Below are positions 19,440 through 22,618 of a DNA stretch of 42,492 nt, in pieces. Under the pieces are notes generated by a model, which worked only from the letters and a program-made list of their open reading frames with translations, was not told the DNA's origin and ran no database searches. The stretch is from Caldifarciminota bacterium (GTDB lineage: Bacteria; Hydrothermota; Hydrothermia; WGAB01). Numbering within the stretch: position 1 is the stretch's first letter; every line of letters begins with the position of its first letter. The translations under genes were made by a program, and so were the position numbers. The DNA lies in the NCBI GenBank assembly GCA_015490555.1, contig WFXO01000083.1, positions 1 to 42,492 of the forward strand. Reading direction: 5' to 3'.

Positions 19440-20654
19440 TCAAAAAATGCGAGAGACCAAGACATTGACCAGGTCTCCGGTCCCCACATAGCGTTCTCCA
19501 TTTGCATCTTCTACTTCCAAACGGTATCGGTATCGCCCTCTGGGGACCAGGCGTCCTGTCGCATCTCGGCCATCCCAGGCCAGGCGAAGGGGCGGCAAGC
19601 CATCACCCGAAAATACCCGTGCAGGTTCGCCTGTAGGGGCATAAATCTGAAGTTGCCAACGGACCGGATGAGCCTTGGTACGGACGTGGAGATAGATGTA
19701 TGTCAAAACCCCTGCGGCCCCAACCCGAAGCGTAATATCCTTTGGGTCCGCGTGTGCCCAAACATGATAGCCGCTGTATTGGACCGTGATGGTAAGTCGG
19801 TGGGAGAATTGGGTCAAGAAATCGAGCCCAAGGGTTTGCGAGATAGCATAATCCAATCGTACCACTCGTTGGTTTTGAATGGACCAGATCCCAAACCCAG
19901 CCGACAGACTTTTGGGATCATACCCAAAACGGACGGCAAAGAGATCCAAGGGACGGACTTCCAGTCCAGCATGGAACTGAGTAGATCGGGGGCCCGGCTT
20001 GACCCAATCTGTCATAAACCGGACCTGAGGAAACGGCCGGAGTTCAACTCCAATTCGGGCCACACGCGGGAACTGCTCCCGAACCCGGAAGTATTTCACA
20101 ATCGGGGGAATCACGTTGAGCACGGCAGCCCCTATCTGGACCCCCGGCCGGATCCGCCATTGGGCCCCGATATCAAACCCGATCCCTGCACCGGTAAACT
20201 GTTGAAGCCGGCCATAGTAGAACTTTCCCGTGGCTCCGAGAGATAGTTGGGGCGAGACTCTCCTCGCGTAGGCCAAAAGGCCCCCTGCCTCCAAAAAAGA
20301 GAAGGGCGAGGTAGGCCGTGCATAGATGTCCCGTCCAGGGGTGGTTCTTGTGCGTAATGCCACCAGCATGAAGCCAAATCCAGAGCGGGCATCCACAGGA
20401 TAAACGGACGAAAATCCTCCATAAGAGTGAAGCCAGTGTAGAGAAGTATAACTAAACGTGATCTCTCCCCGTTGGATTTCGGAAAGGGCCGCAGGGTTGT
20501 AATACACACTTTCGGAGGATCCTGTGGCACCGGTATAAGCCCGGCCCAAGCCGAAGGTTCGAGCCCCGAAGCCGTATAAGAAGAGTTCCCCTCCAATCCC
20601 GGCATCCGGCGCAGAGGAAAGCAAGAGACTGAGAATCAGCAACCCTCCACTCAT
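19440..20654 (-). CDS. PorV/PorQ-like (UPF0164-type) outer membrane beta-barrel protein with FlgD-like C-terminal domain
   Basis: GARTFGLGRAYTGATGSSESVYYNPAALSEI motif; C-terminal PLRLAWDGRDATGRLVPRGRYRYRLEV; ATGA overlap with the upstream gene. Confidence 0.75.
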   Translation of the reverse strand: MSGGLLILSLLLSSAPDAGIGGELFLYGFGARTFGLGRAYTGATGSSESVYYNPAALSEIQRGEITFSYTSLHWLHSYGGFSSVYPVDARSGFGFMLVALRTRTTPGRDIYARPTSPFSFLEAGGLLAYARRVSPQLSLGATGKFYYGRLQQFTGAGIGFDIGAQWRIRPGVQIGAAVLNVIPPIVKYFRVREQFPRVARIGVELRPFPQVRFMTDWVKPGPRSTQFHAGLEVRPLDLFAVRFGYDPKSLSAGFGIWSIQNQRVVRLDYAISQTLGLDFLTQFSHRLTITVQYSGYHVWAHADPKDITLRVGAAGVLTYIYLHVRTKAHPVRWQLQIYAPTGEPARVFSGDGLPPLRLAWDGRDATGRLVPRGRYRYRLEVEDANGERYVGTGDLVNVLVSRIF

Positions 20655-22393
20655 CGGATCACTCCCACACTTCGAGAAAATTGGCGGTAGATCTCTCGAC
20701 CGCTGTAGAAACTTACAAACACATCATACATTCCGGATGCAACCGTCTGACCGCGTCCGTTCTTCCCGTCCCACGAAACAAAATTTAATTCATTGAGCCG
20801 TGCTCCTTCTTGACCGACGGGAATCTCGCGTTCCCATACCCGCTCCCCATAGGGAGTTAAAATCGTGATTTTCACTTTGGAGAGATCTCGGTCTTGTGGA
20901 ACCTCGAGGCGATACGCAATGGTCAGGATCTCTCCTTCAGAGAGGATCACGGGGTTGGGATACACCTCAAAGTCGCTACGGATGCGTTGTCCCCGAACCA
21001 CCACTCTGACGGTATCCCACAGGGAGTCCACATGGACTTGGATCCAGGCGGTGTCACCGGTTGCGAACCCTGAGGCGGTATATACCGAGAATGCGATGCC
21101 GTCCAGGTCTGTTTCGACCTCTGGGGGATTGAGGGTCCCATCGCCCGCCAAGAGTGTGTAAAAGACCGTTTTCCCGGGCATCGGATTTCCGGAAGGGGAT
21201 TGGACCCGAGCGTAAATCTTGGAGACACCTCCATTGGAAATTTTCGTGGGCTCTGCCCAGGTTTCTAACTGACCGGCTCGAGCCTCCACTCGGACCACGG
21301 TCACCCAAGGAGTCGAATAGGCCGGAAACGTGGAATCGGAAACGAAAAAGCGATAATGCCCCTGATATGGACACACGACCTGAAATTCTTGTCCCTGTTG
21401 TTGGAAGAATTGGGGGCCGTTGGATTCTGCCGACTGTCCCCCATAGGGATCAAATCCGATGATGTCCACAAGGTGTCCCTGGACAGAGGTGAGGTCTTGT
21501 ACCGGATTGAAGGCAGCATCCACAGCATACACGTGGACCGTAAAAGGACGTTCAAGAAACTGGATGGCCGGGGCACCGGCTTTCCCCGGTGTGGAATCTG
21601 CGTTTGTTGTCGTGTCTCCGGGCAAGAGGGCTTCCCCCGGGAACACCGGGAGAAACCAAGCAATGCTGTCTGGAAGAATCGTGAGGGGTGTACTCCATCC
21701 TTGCACTTGGGGGAACGATCGACTTTGGACAACCAGCCACACGGAGTCTGCCGCACTTCGAAACTGCACCCAGAAAGTGTCTTCTCCCACGACTTCGGGG
21801 CGAATGGGGATCTGAGCAAAGGGTAAACTCCCAAAAAGGGTCTGAACCGAGAACTGCAGGGAATCTGTTTGATCCAGTGGATTGGCGTAGGAGTCGGTCA
21901 GTCGCACTCGAAAGGGGACGGTATCCAGGGTGGTGTACTGTGCGGGATTCGGGGAACCTTGCTTCCCCCACGCAGTCCCGGGATCTGGGACTTCACCCGG
22001 CCAAAGGATTTGAATGCGAGCGTACGGACCGGGATACACCAAAAATGGAGGAGAGGTATCTGTGAGTGTCGGAGTGGCACAGATCAGTCGGAGGGTCCCG
22101 GCCAGGAAAACCCGGAGTTGCACCTGTGCAACCCCAGCCCAAAATGACAGGGTATCTGGTTCCACATAAACGGTGTCCGTTCGTTGAGGGCCTATGACCC
22201 ACAAGACGCCCGGTTCCTGAAAATTCGGGTCAATGTAGCCTTGGGCTGTGAGGGCATTGACTCGCAAGGTGAACGGTTGATCCACGACAAGAGAGTCAGG
22301 GAACATAAACTCAAAGGAGGTAGGTTGGGCTTCCAGGGGGGGTCCTATGAAGAGTCCGAGGAAGAGAAAAAACGCAAAAAAAGATTTTAGAAT
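20651..22393 (-). CDS. Large secreted Ig-like protein with FlgD-like C-terminal domain; start codon unresolved (putative ATT at 22393..22391)
   Basis: Signal-peptide-like (M)LKSFFAFFLFLGLFIGPPLEAQ immediately downstream of tRNA-Gln; C-terminal DFEVYPNPV...VSWDGKNGRGQTVASGMYDVFVSF. The 706-aa ORF N-terminus is translation of the two tRNA genes. Confidence 0.65.
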   Translation of the reverse strand: MLKSFFAFFLFLGLFIGPPLEAQPTSFEFMFPDSLVVDQPFTLRVNALTAQGYIDPNFQEPGVLWVIGPQRTDTVYVEPDTLSFWAGVAQVQLRVFLAGTLRLICATPTLTDTSPPFLVYPGPYARIQILWPGEVPDPGTAWGKQGSPNPAQYTTLDTVPFRVRLTDSYANPLDQTDSLQFSVQTLFGSLPFAQIPIRPEVVGEDTFWVQFRSAADSVWLVVQSRSFPQVQGWSTPLTILPDSIAWFLPVFPGEALLPGDTTTNADSTPGKAGAPAIQFLERPFTVHVYAVDAAFNPVQDLTSVQGHLVDIIGFDPYGGQSAESNGPQFFQQQGQEFQVVCPYQGHYRFFVSDSTFPAYSTPWVTVVRVEARAGQLETWAEPTKISNGGVSKIYARVQSPSGNPMPGKTVFYTLLAGDGTLNPPEVETDLDGIAFSVYTASGFATGDTAWIQVHVDSLWDTVRVVVRGQRIRSDFEVYPNPVILSEGEILTIAYRLEVPQDRDLSKVKITILTPYGERVWEREIPVGQEGARLNELNFVSWDGKNGRGQTVASGMYDVFVSFYSGREIYRQFSRSVGVIR

Positions 22394-22466
22394 GGCTGGG
22401 GGACAGGGATTCGAACCCCGACTTCCTGGTCCAGAGCCAGGCGTCCTGCCGTTAGACGATCCCCCA
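22393..22466 (-). tRNA. tRNA-Gln (anticodon CTG), CCA encoded
   Basis: TGGGGGA...TCCCCCA acceptor stem, CCTGG-CTCTGGA-CCAGG anticodon arm, GGTTCGAAT T loop, terminal G-CCA. Confidence 0.95.
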
Positions 22467-22500
22467 TTGTTGAACAAGATCGGATTTTCCTTTGAAGAAG

Positions 22501-22575
22501 CAGCGCCACCGGGATTTGAACCCGGGTCTCCTGGCTGAGAACCAGGTGTCCTCGGCCTGGCTAGACGATGGCGCC
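22501..22575 (-). tRNA. tRNA-Glu (anticodon CTC), CCA not encoded
   Basis: GGCGCCA...TGGCGCT acceptor stem, CCTGG-TTCTCAG-CCAGG anticodon arm, GGTTCAAAT T loop. Confidence 0.94.
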
Positions 22576-22589
22576 GTGTAGGGGTTGAA

Positions 22590-22618
22590 GTTATAACGCC
22601 ACATCCCATAGATGTCAA
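22590..22618 (-). promoter_or_regulatory. Promoter of the tRNA-Glu/tRNA-Gln unit: TTGACA (22618..22613) - 17 - TATAAC (22595..22590)
   Basis: Read directly; about 15 nt upstream of tRNA-Glu. Confidence 0.8.

Follow-up and report, generated by a model that had tools for sequence, protein, structure and literature searches.

In mitochondria, tRNAs act as punctuation: they are excised from polycistronic RNA, leaving leaderless mRNAs, some of which start with AUU. The thrU-tufB unit of Escherichia coli likewise combines a tRNA with the protein gene that follows it. In Thermococcus, a tRNA-Lys is embedded in the 5' untranslated region of an archaeal mRNA, TK0306 (PMC4247193). Leaderless and short-leader mRNAs are also described in bacteria, among them Actinobacteria (PMC4633059, PMC3848588), and AUU initiates translation of infC and pcnB in E. 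coli (PMC9410913). The genes described here resemble those of mitochondria in lying at, or a few nucleotides past, a tRNA 3' end, without a Shine-Dalgarno (SD) sequence and probably co-transcribed with the tRNA. Unlike the mitochondrial case, they reside on a bacterial chromosome with SD-led genes elsewhere, one ORF is startless at the junction in both genomes that carry it, and processing at the tRNA is presumptive. As in thrU-tufB and TK0306, tRNA and mRNA would share one precursor, but the protein genes of those units have their own start after the tRNA. The use of ATG, GTG or TTG without SD by the tRNA-linked genes of the family recalls leaderless mRNAs, whose ends come from transcription start sites, whereas here the preceding tRNA would need to be cut off. 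Finally, an ATT occupies a plausible start position, as in infC and pcnB, yet it lacks an SD and is not kept in the relative. In a partial search of the literature, whose silence is weak evidence, we met no description of this arrangement in bacteria and no paper combining WOR-3, tRNA and leaderless.

A surface-protein ORF abutting tRNA-Gln

The window, a 42,492-nt stretch of contig WFXO01000083.1 (genome G000, like its relative G001 below an uncultured WOR-3 bacterium), carries on its minus strand a promoter, tRNA-Glu(CTC), a 33-nt spacer, tRNA-Gln(CTG) and, without a gap, a 580-codon ORF on the same strand (Table 1). The tRNA-Gln is the single Gln-CTG gene found in this genome. From the tRNA onward the ORF encodes (ATT)LKSFFAFFLFLGLFIGPPLEAQ..., a signal peptide, and then Ig-like domains, whose matches to Big_1 and FlgD_ig were both under the Pfam cut-offs. 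An outer-membrane-protein-like gene comes next, as it also does in the relative described below (G001) and in genome G031. The promoter escaped our automatic scan because the scan demands a T at the last -10 position; its assignment in the preliminary description is supported by a similar sequence at the equivalent place in the relative. Co-transcription of the ORF with the tRNAs, suggested in the same description, is likely, given the conserved promoter and the absence of space behind the tRNA for a second one.

Table 1. Features of the tRNA-Glu/tRNA-Gln/surface-protein locus in the window. SD energies assume the canonical anti-SD, taken from the SD-led genes of the window (16S found only partial).
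Feature	Position	Strand	Remark
Promoter TTGACA-17-TATAAC	22590..22618	-	5' of tRNA-Glu; G001 counterpart TTGACG-17-TATAAT
tRNA-Glu(CTC)	22500..22575	-	CCA unencoded
AAAGGA	22488..22493	-	Candidate SD of the upstream TTG; modest, -5.8 kcal/mol
TTG, in frame	22475..22477	-	Preferred candidate start, 22 nt past tRNA-Glu
tRNA-Gln(CTG)	22393..22466	-	CCA encoded; frame open across the tRNA
ATT	22391..22393	-	Start proposed in the preliminary description; overlaps A76 of tRNA-Gln; no SD (0.1 kcal/mol); AAT in G001
T7-GCG-T6 tract	22367..22382	-	Inside signal-peptide codons; direct sequence reading
ORF, 580 codons	20651..22393	-	Signal peptide, Big_1-like and FlgD_ig-like domains
Next gene, outer-membrane-protein-like	19440..20654	-	FlgD_ig-like C-terminus (weak Pfam matches)

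Of the three frames, that of the ORF alone becomes strongly hydrophobic after the tRNA in both genomes, and in neither does an in-frame ATG, GTG or TTG stand between the tRNA cut site and the signal peptide. In the window, the first canonical in-frame codon 3' of tRNA-Gln is ATG 22306..22304. The preliminary description, which looked no further upstream than tRNA-Gln, had reported none between the tRNA-Gln 5' end and the hydrophobic core. This held, and extends to the ATG, but the in-frame TTG just upstream of the tRNA had been omitted. That TTG (22477..22475) sits 10 nt after the AAAGGA, and the frame is open from it onward; the open frame extends upstream across both tRNAs. Openness through tRNA-Gln is unsurprising, because two of the three frames through it are open. 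The alternative frames were set aside: one has an ATG at the tRNA-Gln 5' end but stops at TAA 22390..22388, and the other has a stop within tRNA-Gln and no start from that stop to the ORF.

The startless junction in a second genus

Among the compared genomes the sole other family member is G001 (contig JALXEF010000088.1, candidate division WOR-3), which represents another genus of the same taxonomic family and was also the one close public relative recovered by a search of genome contigs. There, too, a promoter is followed by tRNA-Glu(CTC), a 65-nt spacer, tRNA-Gln(CTG) and an ORF directly after. The two tRNA-Gln genes are identical at 74/74 bases, and the proteins share 46% identity across some 570 residues, both reading frames being free of stops and frameshifts. 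As the genes 5' of the promoter differ and the downstream gene is the same, the stretch from the promoter through the tRNAs and ORF to the downstream gene looks like the conserved unit. Relative to tRNA-Gln, the ORF lies in the same frame in both genomes; the aligned length from the tRNA end to the signal peptide differs by 18 nt, a multiple of three. A signal-peptidase-like site before Q-P is also kept in both, and only in the ORF frame.

The junction of the relative, CCA-GCC-AAT-TTT-TTC-TGG, is read ...CAGCCAATTTTTTCTGG (codons GCC AAT TTT TTC TGG). Between the tRNA and the signal peptide it has no in-frame ATG, GTG, TTG or ATT, and the hydrophobic stretch, NFFWALLLVAAPLLWSQ, starts where the tRNA ends and brings no basic residue itself. 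The startless junction noted in the preliminary description is real and is strengthened by this second genome. Its recurrence in another genus, behind unrelated upstream genes, is more than chance. The same comparison weakens the interpretation of the ATT as a putative start. The codon was placed correctly, at 22393..22391 with 22393 the A of the encoded CCA, yet an ATT start cannot explain both genomes because the relative has AAT at that position.

Across orthologues, AUU at the start position is not conserved. Distant orthologues in two other families (30-31% identity) have their own ATG, a hydrophobic N-terminal segment and no tRNA in front, and the tRNA-ORF fusion thus looks derived. Further members were found neither among the compared genomes nor, by protein search, in viral contigs, where five DNA matches to the tRNA 3' end had no similar ORF beside them.

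Possible translation through tRNA-Gln

The reading that we tentatively prefer places the start upstream, so that translation would run in frame through tRNA-Gln into the signal peptide. One promoter would yield an RNA with tRNA-Glu, tRNA-Gln, the surface-protein ORF and probably the outer-membrane-protein gene. The protein gene would belong to tRNA-Glu and start at the spacer TTG in the window or at a GTG in the relative; the ribosome would read the tRNA-Gln sequence in frame (GGSSNGRTPGSGPGSRGSNPCPPA) and continue into the signal peptide. With tRNA-Gln nested in the coding sequence, each precursor RNA would give mature tRNA-Gln or protein, not both, in line with the preliminary description, which had recognized that tRNA maturation clashes with keeping the 5' end of the coding sequence intact. 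The observations beneath this model are the layout, the common frame, the lack of other starts and the conserved promoter.

An in-frame start followed by an open frame is present upstream of tRNA-Gln in both members, the only two. These starts (TTG at +22 and GTG at +27 from tRNA-Glu) fall inside the range of distances of other tRNA-linked genes in these genomes, and the Glu-Gln spacers that hold them measure 33 and 65 nt, versus 0-10 nt for the majority of the other families in the class. Against the upstream start, chance alone yields an in-frame start in 20% and 45% of the shuffled spacers, and in both together about 9% of the time, so that translation through the tRNA is the best single explanation yet mainly by elimination. 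The SD is of modest strength in the window and weak in the relative, the spacer-encoded residues are dissimilar between the two, and such an mRNA would not survive efficient cleavage by RNase P. We rejected the perfect identity of the tRNAs as proof of dual coding: tRNA-Gln is 73/74 identical in another family as well, and its conservation therefore says nothing about coding. It is possible, if doubtful, that an apparently single-copy functional tRNA gene also serves, across two genera, as the sequence encoding the N-terminus of a secreted protein, with each precursor choosing between a tRNA and an mRNA fate and tRNA-Gln supply tied to the surface protein. If the tRNA were translated, the DNA of one strand would carry a tRNA and a protein N-terminus as mutually exclusive products, and the locus would allow one to study, in a simple setting, how RNA processing and translation compete.

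The start could instead lie in the T-rich stretch right after the tRNA, masked by an indel or restored by slippage, as polymerases slip on T runs. One extra T in the T6 run (T6 read as T7) would bring the out-of-frame TTG 22377..22375, which lies 15 nt after the tRNA, into frame and give M-R-FFLFLGLFIGPPLEAQ, an ideal short signal peptide; other tRNA-linked genes in both genomes begin with ATG, TTG or GTG 5-16 nt after the tRNA, behind T-rich spacers. We nevertheless consider such a start somewhat unlikely. By inspection, no single indel places a canonical start close to the tRNA in the relative, so a separate event would be needed in each genome, and six or seven T's are short for slippage and easy for short-read sequencing. 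A true AUU start overlapping the A of CCA, on an mRNA from a tRNA uncut at its 3' end, would have the codon exactly where a start would fit, a good signal peptide (LKSFFAFFLFLGLFIG) and the precedent of infC and pcnB (PMC9410913). It would also leave the relative to start otherwise, for there the AAT is followed by 30 nt without a near-cognate codon; this and the missing SD make it unlikely.

Assembly errors in both genomes could conceal an ordinary ATG, GTG or TTG. One changed base suffices in the window (CCATG read as CCATT, a possibility raised in the preliminary description), and some doubt attaches to assemblies with a contig coverage of 2.75 (the relative, a metagenome assembly) or fragmentation into 109 contigs (the window's genome). 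As the relative would require its own independent defect, at the same junction and with both ORFs otherwise intact, we regard this explanation as quite improbable. Initiation at ATG 22306..22304, the first canonical codon available, or at a later GTG would dispense with the signal peptide and make the upstream frame meaningless. Such a start is very unlikely in view of the hydrophobic stretch and signal-peptidase-like site kept in this frame alone, the hydrophobic segment with which orthologues begin, and the lack of alignment between the first downstream start codons of the two genomes. It is barely plausible that the tRNA fusion killed the gene and left an untranslated remnant; the missing start codon would fit, but not the extent of protein identity and the uninterrupted frames in both genomes.

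Protein genes directly after tRNAs

Firmer than the proposed translation through tRNA-Gln is a wider pattern of protein genes placed just after tRNAs. In the two genomes, 26/79 tRNAs that are last in their cluster have a same-strand ATG gene within 16 nt, against about 5% of control positions (binomial P about 1e-14). The count covers ORFs of 100+ aa and tRNAs with enough downstream sequence, and the controls are random positions. The spacers of up to 16 nt are mostly T-rich, with an SD-like match in only 2/26, versus 9/12 for spacers of 17-45 nt. Examples are L035, L046, L052 and L094 in the window's genome and L060, L081, L098 and L103 in the relative. Enrichment is weaker in G009 (4/29), G011 (5/26) and G052 (4/26) versus 3-4%, with part of their tRNAs sampled. 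With a tRNA directly before a protein gene being ordinary here, the startless junction appears as the extreme case, lacking even the start.

Were these mRNAs generated by tRNA 3' processing, they would carry leaders of 3-16 nt, as in mitochondrial tRNA punctuation, and the tRNA-linked genes of the family may be a bacterial counterpart to it. Gene finders may mis-start such genes. Orthologues in the window's genome and the relative, with starts assigned by eye from translations, begin with TTG at +11/+7 after tRNA-His, ATG +9/GTG +9 after tRNA-Leu(TAA) and ATG +9/TTG +9 after tRNA-Ser(TGA). In the orthologue pairs L040/L070, L085/L077 and L095/L105 the start position is approximately kept and no SD is evident. 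The start codon switches between ATG and GTG or TTG in two of three pairs and is TTG in both members of the third.

The Glu(CTC)-Gln(CTG) pair also occurs in three further families of the class, f4, f10 and f11 (L111-L114, L117, L119-L123, L125-L127), where the ATG of a guaB-like gene (IMP dehydrogenase), identified by eye from its N-terminal sequence, follows at a distance of 9-14 nt. In family f8 (L134, L136), tRNA-Gln precedes an EF-Tu-like gene with a strong SD. A tRNA-Ser(GCT) of the window's genome (L086, 1501-1705) ends in CC-ATG, with the ATG overlapping the A of CCA and beginning a 36-codon ORF whose first residues (MRWMALLFCAPLWAG) resemble a signal peptide; we set it aside as a precedent on account of the shortness of the ORF. 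Only some of the tRNA genes in the two genomes encode CCA, and its presence differs between orthologues.
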